A stretch of 35,465 nt of DNA from Polyangiaceae bacterium (GTDB lineage: Bacteria > Myxococcota_A > Polyangia > Polyangiales > Polyangiaceae): positions 1 through 35,465 of the forward strand of contig JAJDAH010000011.1 of NCBI GenBank assembly GCA_029261965.1, written 5' to 3'. Positions 5,026 through 27,322 of the stretch are shown in pieces. The notes beneath the pieces are model-generated. The model did not search any database. It was not told the DNA's origin and saw only the letters and a program-made list of their open reading frames with translations. The position numbers and the translations under genes were made by a program. Within the stretch, counting starts at the first letter, position 1. The number at the start of each line of letters is the position of its first letter.

Positions 5026-5322
5026 CTAGCCCTCGGCGACGCTCAGCACTCGCTCCACCCCGACTCCACGAACCTCCACCACCTTGCGCCGTGAGCTCGA
5101 CCCGCTCGAAATGCAAACGTCGGCCCGCCGGACGCCGAATGACTTCGCCACGGTTCGCACCAGCTCTTCGTTCGCGGCGCCATCGACCGGTGGGGCTCGC
5201 ACACGAACCACCAGCGCACCGTCGTGCACGCCGCCAAGTGCGCTCTTGCTGGACCGAGGCTTGACGAGCACGGCGATACGGACGCCGTCGGAGAACGCAG
5301 TAACGTCGAGAGCCCGAGCCAA
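5026..5322 (-). CDS. DUF167 (YggU-like) family protein
   Basis: A small cytoplasmic protein of about 98 residues, the usual size for the DUF167/UPF0235 family, whose biochemical role is not established. Visible family features are the V-K-P-R-(S)-x-(K) strand near the start, the V-x-A-P-P-V-D-G-A-A-N motif in the middle and a G-x-x-S-R-x-K segment near the end. The start is uncertain: no ATG or GTG lies in a suitable place, and TTG at 5322 is chosen because it gives family length. An upstream TTG would extend it slightly. It is divergent from the aroKB fusion, with about 70 bp between the chosen starts. Confidence 0.8.
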   Translation of the reverse strand: MARALDVTAFSDGVRIAVLVKPRSSKSALGGVHDGALVVRVRAPPVDGAANEELVRTVAKSFGVRRADVCISSGSSSRRKVVEVRGVGVERVLSVAEG

Positions 5323-5395
5323 CCTTGCAGCATGGTCGCGGGCTGCCCCCGGACAGCGCAAGGGCGATCCCAACGCCGGTGTTAAGCTCCGCGCC

Positions 5396-6976
5396 GTGCT
5401 GCGACCGCTGCTCATCAACGGGTTCATGGCGACTGGAAAGTCGACCGTCGGCCGACTCGTCGCCGAGCGGACCGGCTCGCCGTTCACCGATCTGGACGAG
5501 AGGATCGAAAACCGCGCTGGCCGAAAGATTCGAGACATCTTCCAGAACGACGGAGAATCGGCGTTTCGCCGACTCGAAGCGGAGGAGCTCGAAAGGATTT
5601 TCGGCGAACCGCCGGCGGTGGTCGCCCTCGGTGGAGGCGCCCTGCTCGGCCGAGAGCGGCGCCTACGCGCCCTCGACCAGGCGGTGGTGGTCACCCTAGG
5701 GGCAACGCCCCGAGCGATTCTGTCCAGAACCTCGGGCAAGGGGGACCGTCCACTGCTCGCGGCCTCGGACGACGCGTCCCGCCTCGAGCGGATCGAGACG
5801 CTGCTGGAAGCTCGCCGGGCCGCCTACGTGGAGGCTCACGCCGTCCTCGACACCACCTCCGCCAGGCCTACCGAGGTGCGAGACCGGGTGGTGGACGTCT
5901 GGAAACGGGACCCCATCGCCGTCGCCGCGGGCGAGCGCTCCTACGCCGTAGACGTCGGCGCTGGCATCGCCATCGAGCGCCTACCCGGTCTCGCCAGCGC
6001 CGCTTCGAGACGATTGCTGGTCACCGACGACGTCGTCGAGCCACTTCACGCGGGGCCCGTGCTCGCTCGCCTGCAGAGCTTGGGCTCCACCAACTCCGTC
6101 GTGCTTCCCGCCGGCGAGCAGCACAAGGCCGTGCCGTCTCTCGAACGGATCTGGCACGCGGCCACGGCTCACGGCATCGACCGGCGAAGCATCGTGGTCG
6201 CGCTCGGCGGCGGTGTCGTGACGGACGTCGCGGGTTTCGCGGCAGCCACCTGGATGCGCGGGATCTCTTGGGTGGCCATCCCCACCACCTTGCTCGCCAT
6301 GGTCGACGCGTCCACCGGAGGCAAAACCGCCATCGACTTCGGCGAAGCGAAAAACGCCGTCGGCGCGTTCTGGCAGCCGAGCGGCGTGATCTGCGACGTC
6401 GATTGGCTTCGAACCGAGGGACAGCGCAACTACGCGAGCGCGCTGGCCGAGGTCGTCAAGACAGCCATCATCGGCGACGAAACCCTGCTCGACCGGCTCG
6501 AAGCCGAGACGACAAAAGTCTTGGCCCGAGATCCGCTCATCGTCACCGAGCTCGTTCGACGGAGCGTCAGGGTCAAAGCGCGCATCGTCAGTCGCGATGA
6601 GCGCGAAGGTGGCCTCAGAGCCACGCTCAATCTCGGGCACACCATCGGCCATGCGCTCGAAGCCGAAGGGGGCTACGGGCGGCTGACCCACGGCGAGGCC
6701 ATCAGCCTCGGGCTCGTCGCCGCCGGTCGGATCGGGGTGCGCCTCGGCACGACACCAAAGGATCTCGCGGACCGAACAGAACGACTGCTGGGGGCGCTGG
6801 GGCTGCCCACCGATCTCAGCGAGCAGCCGCTCGAAAGCGCCATCCGATTGATCGCTCACGACAAGAAGCGCGACGGAGGAAACCTCGGCTTCGTGCTGGC
6901 GCGGGCACCAGGCCGAGTCGAGGTCCAAAAGATCGCCCTACGGGACCTCGAAGAGCACGCCGCAGCATTGCTTTGA
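5396..6976 (+). CDS. aroKB: Bifunctional shikimate kinase / 3-dehydroquinate synthase
   Basis: A 526-residue fusion of two shikimate-pathway enzymes. Residues 1 to about 170 are shikimate kinase, with the P-loop G-F-M-A-T-G-K-S-T at 9-17, the substrate-binding D-L-D segment and a G-G-G-A motif. Residues about 180-526 are 3-dehydroquinate synthase (AroB), with the NAD-binding G-G-G-V-V-T-D motif, the P-T-T-L-L-A-M-V-D-A-S segment, a K-N-x-V-G-x-F motif and the zinc ligands (Glu in A-E-V-V-K, His in N-L-G-H-T-x-G-H-A and His in T-H-G-E-A). Both halves keep their catalytic residues. GTG at 5396 is the only suitable start upstream of the P-loop; an internal ATG would cut the P-loop. No frameshift or stop separates the halves, so this is a true fusion. 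Confidence 0.93.
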   Translation: MLRPLLINGFMATGKSTVGRLVAERTGSPFTDLDERIENRAGRKIRDIFQNDGESAFRRLEAEELERIFGEPPAVVALGGGALLGRERRLRALDQAVVVTLGATPRAILSRTSGKGDRPLLAASDDASRLERIETLLEARRAAYVEAHAVLDTTSARPTEVRDRVVDVWKRDPIAVAAGERSYAVDVGAGIAIERLPGLASAASRRLLVTDDVVEPLHAGPVLARLQSLGSTNSVVLPAGEQHKAVPSLERIWHAATAHGIDRRSIVVALGGGVVTDVAGFAAATWMRGISWVAIPTTLLAMVDASTGGKTAIDFGEAKNAVGAFWQPSGVICDVDWLRTEGQRNYASALAEVVKTAIIGDETLLDRLEAETTKVLARDPLIVTELVRRSVRVKARIVSRDEREGGLRATLNLGHTIGHALEAEGGYGRLTHGEAISLGLVAAGRIGVRLGTTPKDLADRTERLLGALGLPTDLSEQPLESAIRLIAHDKKRDGGNLGFVLARAPGRVEVQKIALRDLEEHAAALL

Positions 6977-22614: not shown

Positions 22615-23184
22615 TCACTTCGGAGCGACGCCTGCAGTGCCTGCCGCACCCGCAGTGCCTGCCGCACCCGCAGTGCCTGCTGTGCCGCTCGCTCCGGCCA
22701 CGCCACCCATGCCTGAGGCTCCGCTCGTGCCCGAAACACCGCCCATGCCGGATACGCCACCCATGCCCGCTGCGCCGGCCGAGCCACCCATGCCGCCACC
22801 GCCGCCGGTCGCGCTACCCGCCGAGCCGCCAGCCCCGCCGGTGCTCGATGTGCCACCGGCGCCAGCGATTCCGATCGACCCCGCCGAGCCGGCAGCACCG
22901 CCCATGGCGCCGCTCATCAACCCGGTACCGCCGGTTCCTGGGGCACCCCCCGTGCTGCCTCCGCCCGAGCCGCCGGTGCCGCCACCAAATCCGCCTGCAC
23001 TGCCCGCGTCGTTGCTGTTGAATCCGCCCGTACCGGGAGTTCCGTCACCGCCGGTGCCGAACGTCGCCCCCGCGGCGCCGGCTTCTCCGCGCGCGCCCGG
23101 AGGCTCGGATTGTGGATTGAGCGCGCACGCCGAAATGACGGCGAGCGTCCCCAGGTGAATCGATATCCAAGACGAAAGGCGCAC
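22615..23184 (-). CDS. Glycine-rich repeat lipoprotein (copy A)
   Basis: A 189-residue predicted lipoprotein read from the GTG at 23184, chosen because it gives a proper signal (V-R-L-S-S-W-I-S, hydrophobic core, then V-I-S-A-C). The mature N-terminus C-A-L-N-P-Q-S-E-P-P-G is shared with the gene 140 bp upstream. Nearly all the remainder is glycine/alanine/serine/threonine repeat, with many G-G-x-G-G and A-G-x-A-G-T units, comparable to collagen-like or silk-like sequences. Repeats make a folded enzyme unlikely; a surface filament, spacer or matrix role is an inference. The antisense strand is open too and would give a proline-rich peptide, an artefact of the repeats. Confidence 0.72.
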   Translation of the reverse strand: MRLSSWISIHLGTLAVISACALNPQSEPPGARGEAGAAGATFGTGGDGTPGTGGFNSNDAGSAGGFGGGTGGSGGGSTGGAPGTGGTGLMSGAMGGAAGSAGSIGIAGAGGTSSTGGAGGSAGSATGGGGGMGGSAGAAGMGGVSGMGGVSGTSGASGMGGVAGASGTAGTAGAAGTAGAAGTAGVAPK

Positions 23185-23324
23185 AGCGAGATGGACGGTA
23201 GCACGAGCCGCGCCAGCGCCCGATCCTGCCGGATCCCGGCTAGAGCGTCGACATCTGGCACACCCTGGCACAGGGCCGCGACGTGGGTGACGCTACGACC
23301 GCGGAGCGCAAGGTCACACGCGGC

Positions 23325-23732
23325 CTACTCGGCAGTTGCGTCGCCGGCTTCGGGCACGTCCGCGTCGGAGGCATCCGGGGCGCCGCCATCTCCGGCGTCG
23401 CCGCCGGGGCCGGCCTCGCTGTCGAACGCGCCGTCAGGCACCTCGCCGCCATCGGAGTTTGGCGGAAGGCCGGAGTCGGGGCCCATGCTCGCGCCGGCCG
23501 AACCCGACGTTCCGCCGCCGCTCGTGGCTCCCGAGCCGCCCGTGGACACCGTGGCACCGCCGGTTCCGTCCAGACCACCGGAGCCCCCGGTTCCCAGTCC
23601 GCCAGCACCCACGGTGCCCCCTCCGTCGGCAGCCGTGTTCTCGAACCCTGGCGGCTCGGACTGTGGATTGAGCGCGCACGCTCCGACCACGAATCCCAAC
23701 AAGACCCATCTCCAGCGCGCCCGACCCAACAT
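23325..23732 (-). CDS. Glycine-rich repeat lipoprotein (copy B)
   Basis: A 135-residue predicted lipoprotein from the ATG at 23732, preceded by a purine-rich GGGGGGTGAGG. The signal (R-W-R-W-V-L-L-G-F-V-V-G-A-C) ends in a lipobox, and the mature chain starts C-A-L-N-P-Q-S-E-P-P-G, exactly as in copy A. The middle is a G-G-S/T-G repeat and the last 50 residues are rich in Asp, Gly and Ala (D-A-G-D-G-G-A-P-D-A-S), different from copy A. The two genes are therefore paralogues with a conserved anchor and diverged repeat tails. Function unknown. Confidence 0.72.
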   Translation of the reverse strand: MLGRARWRWVLLGFVVGACALNPQSEPPGFENTAADGGGTVGAGGLGTGGSGGLDGTGGATVSTGGSGATSGGGTSGSAGASMGPDSGLPPNSDGGEVPDGAFDSEAGPGGDAGDGGAPDASDADVPEAGDATAE

Positions 23733-23776
23733 CCTCACCCCCCTCAAGATAGCAAGGACCCTGCCAGAGCGCAGGT

Positions 23777-24604
23777 CTACCGTTCGCGCAACTTTCGCGC
23801 GGCCGCCAGCACCTCGAGCGACCGATCGAGCGCGGGAGGATCCGCCCCGAGTCCCTCGGCGGCAGGACCCAATACCGCGATCAATTCGCGGAGCACTCGT
23901 GCGATTTCATCCGAATTCGTATCGAGAATGTCGTGCCACATTCTTGCTGCACCGCCCGCGCCCCGAGTCATCCGCTCGAAGGCCGGACCCCCGGCGCCAG
24001 TCGCTCCTCGCTCTTCGCCGAGCACGGCAAGCGCGCTGGCCAGTAGCTGGGGCACGTGACTCGTCACCGCGACCGCGCGATCATGCTCGTCCGGGGTCAT
24101 GCGCCGCGGCTCCGCCCCGAGCGAACGGGCCAGCTCTTCGACCGCCGCCACGTGGCTTGGCTCGCTGCCCTCCGCGCAAACGATCCACGGTCGTTGCTCG
24201 AAGAGGTCGGCGCGCGCACTGTCGAGACCGCCCTCGGGCGTGCCGGCCATCGGATGGCTACCCACGAAGCGACTCGCGTGCGGCGAGCGGCGAGCCGTGC
24301 GAGCAACGGCGCGCTTGGTCGAGCCCGTATCTGTCACGACCCGGGAATGTTCGAGCGCGTGCCCGAGCATCTGTTCGATCGCGCGGACTGGCGCGGCCAG
24401 TATCGTGATGTCGGCGTCACCGAGAGCCGCTTCGAGCGCCACCGTGTCCCCCGCGTCCACGGTCCGCGAGACCACCGATCGCGCGGCATCGCTCGACACG
24501 ACCTCGCGCACGTCCGCACCCACGACGTCGGCGCCAAGACGCTCGCGCGCCGCGAGCGCCACCGAACCGCCGATGAGCCCGAGCCCGACGACCGCAAGCT
24601 TCAT
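23777..24604 (-). CDS. tyrA: Prephenate/arogenate dehydrogenase
   Basis: A 275-residue cytoplasmic NAD(P)-dependent enzyme of tyrosine synthesis that oxidatively decarboxylates prephenate (or arogenate). The Rossmann motif G-L-G-L-I-G-G-S lies at 7-14. The catalytic region G-S-H-P-M-A-G-T-P-E-G-G and the later V-T-S-H-V-P-Q-L motif with its histidine are typical of TyrA. The substrate preference cannot be read from sequence here. The ATG at 24604 overlaps the stop of the upstream DAHP-synthase-like gene (ATGA), so the two are translated from one message. No ACT or chorismate-mutase domain is attached. Confidence 0.92.
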   Translation of the reverse strand: MKLAVVGLGLIGGSVALAARERLGADVVGADVREVVSSDAARSVVSRTVDAGDTVALEAALGDADITILAAPVRAIEQMLGHALEHSRVVTDTGSTKRAVARTARRSPHASRFVGSHPMAGTPEGGLDSARADLFEQRPWIVCAEGSEPSHVAAVEELARSLGAEPRRMTPDEHDRAVAVTSHVPQLLASALAVLGEERGATGAGGPAFERMTRGAGGAARMWHDILDTNSDEIARVLRELIAVLGPAAEGLGADPPALDRSLEVLAAARKLRER

Positions 24605-25473
24605 CCGCGAGCCGCCGAGCTCACGTTCCGGACGACTTCGGCGACGCGCACCGCCTCGTCCCATGGCAAGGTGGCTGGAACGCGCGGGAGCGTTCCCTCT
24701 TTGCCGACCCAAGCGCGCAGGATGATCCCATCGGCGCCCGCAGCGATGGCCGCCATGGCGACCGAGGCGCAGTACCGTGAACGCTGGGCGACCGTGGGAA
24801 CGTCGACGACCACGGGCAGATGAGAACGCTGCTTGGCGCGGGGAATCGTCCCGATCTCGAGGGTGCGGATGCCGCTCGGGTACTCGCCACCCGCTTCGAG
24901 CAAAACGACCGCCGTCTCGCCGCGCGCCAGCTGCTTCTCGGCCGCTCGGAGCCACGGGCTCATGCCCCAGGTCGGCTGTCGGGCGACGAAGATCATGGGC
25001 TGGTCGGGCTGCGGGTGCAGGGTGACGCAAGCGAGAGCGCCCATGCGCTCGTACGGAATGGCGGACCGCGTGACCGCGGCGTCGAACGGACGACCCGCGG
25101 CGACGTCGTAGCGAAGCTGAGCCGACGGTGGCGCGCCGTCAGGATCTTTCGACGGCGGACCGAGCCCCACGGGCTCGATGCCGATCCACGGTCGCTCGCC
25201 ACCTATCGATCCCCAATCACCCTCCACGACGGTGGGCTCGCGCCGAAAGCGACGGGACGCCAGACGGCAGGGCTCACTGACGTTCACCACTTCGGCGACG
25301 CCGGGGAGATCACGGACCACCGCGATGTCTTCGTCGGTCACGTCACCGACGACGCCGAAAATGGAGCGAGTCTGGCCGCTCGAGCGGTGCACATCGAACC
25401 CGGAATCGACCAGGAACGAAATGACCGCTTCCGCCTCCTCCTCCGGCGTCTCCGCCTCCATCACCACGATCAT
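24601..25473 (-). CDS. Degenerate DAHP-synthase-like protein
   Basis: A 290-residue protein related to type I 3-deoxy-7-phosphoheptulonate synthase (AroF/AroG-like), the entry enzyme of the shikimate pathway. Residues 1-70 match the ferredoxin-like N-terminal domain that carries feedback regulation, and 68-100 align with the start of the barrel. However the G-P-C-S-V-E motif is missing, the metal/substrate motif V-D-P-S-H reads V-D-V-P-T (213-217), and the K-P-R-T region is not found. Only G-I-R-T-L-E (201-206) and the final A-A-G-A-D-G-I segment are kept. The barrel is also shortened. It is probably catalytically inactive and may regulate a true DAHP synthase or TyrA. The ATG at 25473 gives the conserved N-terminus. 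Confidence 0.78.
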   Translation of the reverse strand: MIVVMEAETPEEEAEAVISFLVDSGFDVHRSSGQTRSIFGVVGDVTDEDIAVVRDLPGVAEVVNVSEPCRLASRRFRREPTVVEGDWGSIGGERPWIGIEPVGLGPPSKDPDGAPPSAQLRYDVAAGRPFDAAVTRSAIPYERMGALACVTLHPQPDQPMIFVARQPTWGMSPWLRAAEKQLARGETAVVLLEAGGEYPSGIRTLEIGTIPRAKQRSHLPVVVDVPTVAQRSRYCASVAMAAIAAGADGIILRAWVGKEGTLPRVPATLPWDEAVRVAEVVRNVSSAARG

Positions 25474-25618
25474 CGGGACGCCACGAGAGTAGCAAAACGG
25501 CGTCCCGATGCGGGAACGCTCGACGCAAGACCGAGTTGCCGCGGGTCGACGGGCTTGGTGCCCGCCGCCCGTCGCGCTAAGTTCTGGGGCCCGCCGCCCC
25601 GAGCCACGAAATCCGCCG

Positions 25619-27322
25619 ATGGAACAGGAGTCTACAGACCCGCTGATCGGGACCATGGTGTCCGGCCGCTATCGGGTCGTGAAGAAGCTGGGCGAAGGCG
25701 GCATGGGGAGCGTCTACGCCGGCGAGCACGAGGCCATCGAAAAGCAGGTCGCGCTCAAGGTGCTGCACGCGGAGTACTCCGCCAAGGCCGACATCGTCGA
25801 ACGCTTCCAGCAGGAAGCCAAAGCGGCGTCGCGCATCAAGCACCCCAACGTCCTCGACATCTTCGATTTCGGGCAACTCGACAACGGGAGCTTCTTCCTC
25901 GCGATGGAGTTTCTCGAGGGGCACGACCTCGCCGACGACCTGTTGAAGTACAACGTGCTCCCGCCTGCGCGCGGGATCCCGTTCGCGTTGCAGATTTGCC
26001 GAGCGCTCGCCGCAGCGCATTCGCGCGGTGTAGTTCACCGCGACATGAAGCCGGAGAACGTCTTCATTCTGCGCACCACGGACGGTCAGGAAATCGTCAA
26101 GATCGTCGACTTCGGCATCGCTCAGCTGCGCAGCAACGACGCGGCGGCGGCGGCCGCCGAGTCGGCGCCGAAGCGCCGGAAGCTGACGAAAACGGGCATG
26201 ATTTTCGGGACGCCGGAATACATGGCCCCGGAGCAAGCGGCCGGAAAAAAGGCCGACCTCCGCGTCGACATCTACGCCACGGGGATCATTCTGTACGAGA
26301 TGTTCACCGGCCACGTCCCGCACACCGGCGAGACGTTCATGGCGGTGCTCGCAGCGCATTTGAACGACACCCCGCCGCCCATGCCGTCGGTGAACCCGGA
26401 GCTCCCGGTGAGCCCAGCGTTCCAAGCGGTGGTCATGAAGGCGCTCGCGAAGAAACCCGAGGAGCGCTACCAGTCGATGGCCGAGCTGGCCGAGGCGATC
26501 ATGGCCACGCCGGATGCCGAGGCGGTCGGCACCCAGGCGCAGCGCATGGCGTCGATACCCGACACGACCGCCAGCCAGTTCATGGCTCAGTCGTCGAACA
26601 CGGCGGCTCAGTTCGCGCCAGATCCGAACCAGGGCACCCACGCTCAGTTTCCCGGAGGCGGGGCCGGTCCAGCGCCCGCCCCGCTCCCCGCTGCCGGCGC
26701 GCAGATAGGCAATGCGATGACGGTGGGCCTCGACGAGGCCGCCCCGCTGCCCACCCCCGGAGCGCGAGCGCAGACCCAGCTCGAAGCCTCCACGACGTCG
26801 CCGACGCCGCTGCCTAAAAAGTCTTCTTCTGGCGGCCTTTTTGCTGCGATCGCGGGCATCGTGGTGGTTGGCGGGGCCGCCGCGGCGTACGGTTTCATGG
26901 GCGGCCAAACGCCCCCGCCAGAGCCCGAGCCCCCCTCAGACCCCGCAACGGCCGAGCCGGCCGCTCCGTCCGAGCCGAGCCCCGCGGCGACACCGAAACC
27001 GCCCGTGGCAGAGCCCGCGCCGGTGAAGCCAAAGATGATCAAGCTGAAGATCGAGACGACGCCGCCCGGAGCGATCGTCCAGAAGAACGGTTTTCAGATC
27101 TGCGACAGCACGCCGTGTGACATCGAGGCGCACCCCAACGAAGGCATGGAGCTCCTGGCCAAGAAGGGCGCCGCGAAGGGGAAGATCAAGGTGCTGGCGC
27201 AGAAGGATCAAACCGTGAAGATCAAGCTCGCCGCGCCGCGAGCGGCACCTGCCCCGCCGGCGAAACCTCGTTTGTGTGAGGTCGAGGTCGACGGCATCAA
27301 GATCCTCCGGCCCTGTAAATAG
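25619..27322 (+). CDS. Serine/threonine protein kinase with PEGA-like domain
   Basis: A 567-residue membrane kinase. Residues about 18-285 form a Hanks-type kinase domain with all key residues: glycine loop G-E-G-G-M-G-S-V (25-32), Lys47, catalytic H-R-D at 140-142, D-F-G at 164-166 and G-T-P-E-Y-M-A-P-E. A long alanine/proline/glutamine-rich linker follows, then one membrane segment near 405-428, then a proline-rich stretch and a C-terminal PEGA-like domain (I-E-T-T-P-P-G-A-I-V) outside the membrane. Two cysteine pairs in the outer domain could form disulfides. This layout is common in myxobacterial kinases. It is divergent from the tyrA unit, and its phosphorylation targets are unknown. Confidence 0.92.
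   Translation: MEQESTDPLIGTMVSGRYRVVKKLGEGGMGSVYAGEHEAIEKQVALKVLHAEYSAKADIVERFQQEAKAASRIKHPNVLDIFDFGQLDNGSFFLAMEFLEGHDLADDLLKYNVLPPARGIPFALQICRALAAAHSRGVVHRDMKPENVFILRTTDGQEIVKIVDFGIAQLRSNDAAAAAAESAPKRRKLTKTGMIFGTPEYMAPEQAAGKKADLRVDIYATGIILYEMFTGHVPHTGETFMAVLAAHLNDTPPPMPSVNPELPVSPAFQAVVMKALAKKPEERYQSMAELAEAIMATPDAEAVGTQAQRMASIPDTTASQFMAQSSNTAAQFAPDPNQGTHAQFPGGGAGPAPAPLPAAGAQIGNAMTVGLDEAAPLPTPGARAQTQLEASTTSPTPLPKKSSSGGLFAAIAGIVVVGGAAAAYGFMGGQTPPPEPEPPSDPATAEPAAPSEPSPAATPKPPVAEPAPVKPKMIKLKIETTPPGAIVQKNGFQICDSTPCDIEAHPNEGMELLAKKGAAKGKIKVLAQKDQTVKIKLAAPRAAPAPPAKPRLCEVEVDGIKILRPCK

Follow-up and report, generated by a model that had tools for sequence, protein, structure and literature searches.

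A DAHP-synthase homologue without catalytic motifs overlaps tyrA in Polyangiaceae and combines a tyrosine-type sensor with a remodelled barrel

Genes and features at the locus

The window, i.e. the whole stretch of 35,465 nucleotides that was analysed, carries on its minus strand a gene for a protein of 290 residues (24601..25473), whose reading frame is intact from the ATG at 25473 to the TGA at 24603-24601. Pfam, homologue searches and motif counts identified the product as a presumably inactive homologue of DAHP synthase (DAHPS). Its N-terminal part, residues 1-67 (25273..25473, minus strand), is a ferredoxin-like, ACT-type sensor domain, which matched the DAHPS ferredoxin-like family PF18152 with 59.2 bits against a Pfam cut-off of 27 (E 3.6e-16), and residues 1-85 align without gaps with the DAHPS of T. 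maritima. PF18152 was likewise matched by all 22 members of the family alignment at E ≤ 1. Codons 29-31 (His29, Arg30 and Ser31; 25381..25389, minus strand), aligned with His29 and Ser31 of the T. maritima enzyme, constitute a predicted site for the tyrosine hydroxyl. In T. maritima DAHPS, these two residues reportedly contact the hydroxyl group of tyrosine, and their equivalents here are predicted to be such contacts. The tyrosine site of that enzyme is built from two ACT domains (PMC5493349).

Residues 80-290 (24604..25236, minus strand) correspond, according to alignments and predicted fold, to a remodelled (β/α) barrel devoid of DAHPS motifs. The DAHP_synth_1 family scored 20.3 bits on the window protein, under the Pfam cut-off of 25.5, which some orthologues exceed (32.6 bits for L074 and 29.0 for L081). 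In a phmmer comparison with T. maritima DAHPS, residues 1-85 and 173-261 aligned and the middle remained unaligned. These matches bear out the first-pass annotation, made from the letters of the DNA, which held that the regulatory N-terminal domain was kept and the barrel survived in pieces. The barrel further possesses conserved motifs of its own, namely AGRPFDAAV, a PSWG-like stretch, EAGGEYPxGxRTLE and R253-x-W255.

The gene immediately downstream (23777..24604, minus strand) is tyrA, encoding a prephenate dehydrogenase of 275 residues (PDH_N, PF02153, 2.6e-24; PDH_C, PF20463, 7.4e-10), in which Pfam listed no ACT domain up to E 10. Its start codon (ATG at 24604-24602) overlaps the stop codon of the DAHPS homologue within an ATGA tetranucleotide (24601..24604, minus strand). 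On the other side, a Ser/Thr kinase gene (25619..27322, plus strand; PF00069, 1.5e-46) is divergent and syntenic, a kinase match adjoining the orthologue in 13 of 22 named loci. The GC3 of the DAHPS homologue (0.81) is close to those of tyrA (0.77) and the kinase gene (0.84). Two tandem genes for small lipoprotein-like products (22615-23271 and 23325-23747, minus strand) both have CALNPQSEPP behind the signal part and tails rich in Gly and Ala, and CxLNPQPEPP versions of them adjoin the orthologues in L074 and L075. Elsewhere in the window, a single open frame (5084-6976, plus strand) comprises shikimate kinase and DHQ synthase domains as an AroK-AroB fusion.

A promoter-like TGNTANN(C/G)T element is found 21 bases before the ATG (25486..25494, minus strand). 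Of 22 upstream regions, 18 contain the pattern, which was picked after viewing the sequences, at a distance of 18-21 bases from the ATG, whereas mononucleotide shuffles contain it in 0.13 of 22 on average. A sigma-70 consensus scan upstream of the gene returned no site, and an Rfam search of the window no match. A terminator-like hairpin before the start codon (25500-25519, minus strand) was discarded, with one occurrence versus 0.9 in shuffles, and appeared by eye to be unconserved in 21 relatives.

Lost catalytic motifs and predicted fold

The GPCS, KPRT, KRG and DPSH motifs are all missing from the window protein and likewise from every copy inspected, in agreement with the earlier description of a DAHPS homologue without catalytic motifs. 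GPC is absent from all 26 full-length family rows and DPSH from all 27 rows, the region of the latter reading D-V/A-x-T/S in most. In the alignment with DAHPS rows, the stretch with the Asp of S-D-G is missing from the rows shown, as is KRG, and the KPRT stretch is missing or replaced, and the position of the Glu of E-V-H-P is occupied by an invariant arginine, Arg253, in the 22-row alignment. We take the Cys of GPCS, the His of DPSH, the Glu of E-V-H-P and the Asp of S-D-G to be the metal ligands of DAHPS. An active DAHP synthase with unusual motifs was ruled out by the absence of these ligands. Invariant polar residues of the barrel include R128, D131, R136, R165, E193, R203, K214, H218, D224, R253 and W255.

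A fold model of the 290-residue protein was computed with AlphaFold2 from the 22-row alignment (mean pLDDT 85.6, pTM 0.71). The predicted order is a ferredoxin-like domain, a linker and strands at 96-102, 132-135, 147-151, 160-164, 188-193, 221-224 and 249-255, with merely two short helices among the first four barrel strands, and the model predicts a partial loss of structure between barrel strands one and five. The top match in VIA-align was 1vr6, i.e. T. maritima DAHPS (Z 21.9 over 275 residues of both domains, rmsd 6.9), followed by a truncated T. maritima barrel (Z 21.2 over 210 residues, 2.8 Å), and rows within Z 1 of each other are to be read as tied. The nearest solved relatives are thus T. 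maritima DAHPS and its chimera. As expected of a regulatory pseudoenzyme, the predicted enzyme fold is retained, the catalytic motifs are gone and selection is purifying.

Distribution and selection

When 108 genomes of the taxonomic family were searched with a ten-row alignment at 1e-20, 27, among them the genome of the window, proved to hold orthologues, which answers the doubt raised in the first-pass annotation that a conserved orthologue might not exist at all. In the phylum sample, the ten-row alignment matched 10 of 377 genomes, nine of these matches being orthologues. The remaining one, G247 (E 8.9e-21), was ruled out as an orthologue, since its open frame carries GPCSVD and is an ordinary DAHPS. 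When the single protein was used as the query, 29 of 59 genomes matched at E 0.001, its own included, many of the matches being ordinary DAHP synthases, and matches of at least 52% identity were found in 11 genomes, again with its own. The 22 named loci came from GTDB contigs with Polyangiaceae, Polyangia, Myxococcales, Myxococcota, Sorangium or Deltaproteobacteria titles and were retrieved with two peptide patterns, so that copies can be missed. Mean column identity was 70% over 22 rows, namely the window sequence and the named sequences except a partial one (21 of 22). Among the 27 family rows, L059 is partial and was excluded from divergence ratios, dN/dS, barrel tree and invariant counts.

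Values of dN/dS lay between 0 and 0.31 in 21 same-genus pairs without G104 and G070, a range to be read with many dS values near saturation and one sensor value not computable. The G100/G105 pair gave 0.03 for the sensor and 0.04 for the barrel, and the barrel of the G070/G032 pair reached 0.37, above every pair lacking G104. As 27 of 108 genomes hold the gene, DPSH is absent from all 27 and same-genus dN/dS is low, the family is more than a product of chance. A pseudogene was ruled out by the conservation and dN/dS; the intact frame, the GC3 similar to that of the neighbours, the ATGA overlap and the low dN/dS all uphold the earlier view that the gene is not decaying.

Linkage to tyrA

The first-pass annotation had asked whether orthologues in other Myxococcota stand beside tyrA and invariably lack the motifs. 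Indeed, tyrA lies directly downstream in 22 of the 27 genomes, with DPSH in none of the 27. All 22 junctions overlap, through ATGA in 20 and GTGA in two, and TyrA is in frame from this start in 21 of them. In the exception, G032 (L220), the ATGA frame ends after 18 codons and the similarity to TyrA starts later in another frame, for which a frameshift, a changed start or an assembly error are the alternatives. Translational coupling of this kind is no proof of contact.

In five of the 27 genomes (G027, G070, G065, G022 and G015), tyrA is not adjacent. G022 and G015 have a chorismate mutase-TyrA fusion elsewhere in the genome, which in G022 comes after an AroG-like DAHPS gene, and a PDH_N search of G027, G065 and G070 produced no match. 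At the loci of three further relatives (G021, G002 and G098), tyrA lies beside a kinase gene and the DAHPS homologue is absent. As tyrA occurs without the homologue in at least three relatives, any partnership with TyrA would not be obligatory.

Searches of the genome G070, which is 90% complete, came back empty for six aromatic-pathway families (PDH_N, CM_2, DAHP_synth_2, chorismate synthase, DHQ synthase and Chorismate_bind). The single match to DAHP_synth_1 (4.3e-8) agrees with the score of the DAHPS homologue itself (4.9e-8, named copy L074), and no intact DAHP synthase was found in this genome. Its congener G032 holds all the families absent from G070 except type II, distributed across several contigs. 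The G070 locus (L219, contig C126) contains the kinase, DAHPS homologue, CRP-like and PilZ genes in this order and no tyrA match. At 90% completeness, single absences in G070 could be assembly gaps, and single families are missing elsewhere too (Chorismate_bind in G022 and G065; CM_2 in G027), as are chorismate synthase and DHQ synthase matches in G063. G070 is likely an aromatic auxotroph among myxobacteria.

Conservation of sensor and barrel

His29 and Ser31 are retained in all 21 readable tyrA-linked copies, and both are lost in four of the five unlinked ones (G070, G065, G022 and G015), which have Gln29 and Leu, Met or Ile31 instead; G027 retains both. The association between linkage and these residues has a Fisher p of 3e-4, a value that ignores phylogenetic relatedness. 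In the 35 motif-bearing DAHPS rows of relatives, not all of which have the ferredoxin-like domain, the His29/Ser31 pair occurs in none, and His29 alone in four, two of these being one gene.

Invariant positions were defined on 20 linked rows, G104 excluded, and amounted to 16 in the sensor and 56 in the linker plus barrel. Sensor invariants are retained at 12/16 in G070, 11/16 in G022, 10/16 in G065 and 9/16 in G015, and the respective figures for linker plus barrel are 54/56, 54/56, 53/56 and 53/56. Over 210 linked pairs, sensor and barrel diverge at a ratio of 1.01, compared with 1.63-1.71 for these four genomes, so that relaxation in the four unlinked copies is limited to the sensor domain. 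G027, which has no tyrA, retains 16/16 sensor and 55/56 linker plus barrel invariants, with a ratio of 1.06. Since the G070 barrel is kept at 54 of 56 invariants without matches to the aromatic pathway, control of aromatic flux does not explain the barrel.

The reverse case is found in G104, which is tyrA-linked and retains 16/16 sensor but only 43/56 linker plus barrel invariants, its barrel losses including G127, P129, P167, G170, K214, W255 and W271. Against six congeners, its dN/dS is 0.38-0.62 for the barrel and 0.12-0.25 for the sensor. Although this reverse case rests on one genome, the opposite losses in G104 versus G070, G022, G065 and G015 suggest that sensor and barrel are constrained separately, as it would appear from the sequences.

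In the barrel gene tree, G070 joins G022, G065 and G015 (81/81). On account of this grouping, a single event may explain the loss of both tyrA and the sensor site; by genus assignment, G070 shares its genus with the tyrA-linked G032, and the genus labels suggest two losses. The sensor of G027, kept without tyrA, perhaps reflects a recent tyrA loss.

Other DAHP synthases

The genome of the window possesses two intact type I DAHP synthases on other contigs, and a search for type II enzymes gave no match there. The first is encoded in one open frame with a prephenate dehydratase and an ACT-like stretch (L001 1468-3336, minus strand, contig C266), the latter lying upstream of the DAHPS and scoring 23 bits, below the cut-off of 27. 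The second carries its own ferredoxin-like domain.

A second DAHPS homologue, of 276 and 280 residues and 89% identity, is present in G010 and G063 (L149 4077-4904, minus strand, and L150 2781-3620, plus strand, respectively), with DGSL for GPCS and DPSE for DPSH. Its gene ends in an ATGA overlap with a trpE-like gene, which encodes anthranilate synthase domains, and the G063 copy shows PF18152 and a partial DAHP_synth_1 match of 64.1 bits, above the cut-off. G010 and G063 each have a type II DAHPS.

A tree was computed from 12 of the 26 full-length family rows and 35 motif-picked DAHPS rows, of which not all contain the ferredoxin-like domain and two (L083 and L144) are one gene. It placed the trpE-linked pair within a 7-row clade (100/100), beside L161 (88/67); the tyrA-linked family formed a long branch by itself. 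L161 (G128) is a motif-bearing DAHPS whose frame overlaps that of a downstream Chorismate_bind protein. Because the trpE-linked pair groups with L161 and the tyrA-linked family has its own branch, two degenerations of DAHPS, one trpE-linked and one tyrA-linked, would be more likely by sequence. One dead ancestor for both proteins, considered for the resemblance of VGYPPEAAT to AGRPFDAAV, was rejected as the tree places them apart.

In G013, G007 and G003 (L143, L144 and L147, respectively), divergent motif-bearing DAHP synthases occur near or after tyrA, with GLCAVD for GPCSVE; the ferredoxin-like domain of the G007 protein scores under the cut-off. At L143, a prephenate dehydratase-like stretch follows the DAHPS, and the tyrA frame there includes a chorismate mutase domain. 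From the trpE- and tyrA-adjacent cases, DAHPS genes are thus repeatedly found beside branch enzymes in the taxonomic family.

Discussion

Judged from its sequence, the protein is read here as a helper that senses tyrosine for TyrA and is built on a repurposed barrel, a form of regulatory pseudoenzyme. A former type I-β DAHPS would have lost the capacity to make DAHP and would now exert two separable functions, as a TyrA-linked tyrosine sensor and as a repurposed barrel, an account that we rate at slightly better than even. The sensor half seems to act together with TyrA and the barrel elsewhere, as sensor conservation tracks tyrA while the barrel stays without it. The sensor domain with its tyrosine-type site would be produced in step with TyrA from the overlapping genes, would bind tyrosine, probably as a dimer, and would pass the signal in trans to TyrA, itself without an ACT domain. 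The barrel would serve a second ligand or partner, independently of TyrA and the shikimate pathway.

The first-pass annotation had proposed a pseudoenzyme that controls flux into aromatic amino acids through protein contact or tyrosine sensing. Part of this proposal is supported, inasmuch as the conservation of a tyrosine-type sensor tracks tyrA; flux control does not account for the barrel, which is kept in the five of 27 genomes without adjacent tyrA, G070 among them. More generally, dead DAHP synthases may have turned more than once into amino-acid-sensing helpers of branch-point enzymes, namely TyrA and, independently, the TrpE-like protein of G010 and G063, with a TyrA-linked barrel whose new function persists without aromatic biosynthesis. 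This broader proposal is tentative, and on balance we incline to doubt it.

A neofunctionalised enzyme, whose barrel would catalyse a new reaction regulated by tyrosine binding to the sensor and for which tyrA would be merely a co-transcribed neighbour, is rather unlikely, although the many invariant polar residues of the barrel and its retention in G070 and wherever tyrA is absent fit this notion. Taken alone, it does not account for a sensor that relaxes on tyrA loss while the barrel remains intact. Improbable, too, is a purely regulatory pseudoenzyme, in which the whole protein would serve TyrA, or else the active DAHP synthases, as a subunit responding to tyrosine. The ATGA/GTGA coupling, the tracking of tyrA by His29/Ser31 and the two intact DAHP synthases of the same genome argue for it, but the barrel is conserved without adjacent tyrA in five of 27 genomes, including G070, for which the searches detected no TyrA and no intact DAHP synthase. 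Despite the predicted DAHPS/KDO8PS fold, we give hardly any credence to retained DAHP synthase activity, or a similar PEP condensation, carried out by relocated catalytic residues, as the metal ligands and the PEP/E4P motifs are missing, the Glu has become the invariant Arg253, and two intact DAHP synthases exist elsewhere in the genome. Finally, a functionless decaying remnant, to which the vanished catalytic motifs might point, is practically discounted by dN/dS of 0-0.31 in 21 same-genus pairs, including about 0.03 for both domains in G100/G105, by the 70% mean column identity over 22 rows and by the conserved promoter-like element.

With regard to known systems, the tyrosine-sensing helper envisaged here resembles T. 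maritima DAHPS, a tyrosine-inhibited type I-β enzyme with an N-terminal ACT domain: both domains align, His29 and Ser31 are at the same positions, and it is the best fold match. Unlike this enzyme, the window protein lacks the metal and PEP/E4P motifs, is about 48 residues shorter, has motifs of its own and overlaps tyrA. A second parallel is HisZ, which is a paralogue of histidyl-tRNA synthetase. HisZ is a non-catalytic regulatory protein bearing an amino-acid site for its partner HisG, the short-form ATP phosphoribosyltransferase (PMC9734150). By analogy, the window protein would be a non-catalytic protein with an amino-acid site for a partner enzyme; however, contact and function are proven for HisZ-HisG, whereas the window protein is known from sequence and predicted fold. 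Moreover, a HisZ-type subunit would constantly co-occur with its partner, but five of 27 copies lack an adjacent tyrA and the barrel survives there. In M. tuberculosis, chorismate mutase, a branch enzyme further down the pathway, draws on DAHP synthase for its allosteric machinery (PMC7762937, PMC6435475). The DAHP synthase is active and of type II there, in contrast to the window homologue, which is inactive and of type I-β by sequence and whose partner would be TyrA. Lastly, TyrA acquired ACT domains by fusion several times (PMC1173090), and a sensor in trans is therefore a plausible alternative; unlike in such fusions, the sensor here belongs to a protein of its own, which has a DAHPS scaffold. 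Among the papers listed by a literature search of titles and abstracts, in which subscription journals are thinly covered, none dealt with a DAHP synthase homologue that is inactive.

Because genes of this kind score as relatives of DAHP synthase, reconstructions of myxobacterial pathways could include an enzyme that is absent. The family offers a natural experiment in the dismantling of an allosteric enzyme, in which sensor and barrel are kept or lost separately, with different gene losses. In the barrel, an enzyme fold that ranks among the best studied would have found a new use and, if the sensor controls TyrA in trans, the borrowing of allostery within the shikimate pathway would extend to a dead enzyme.
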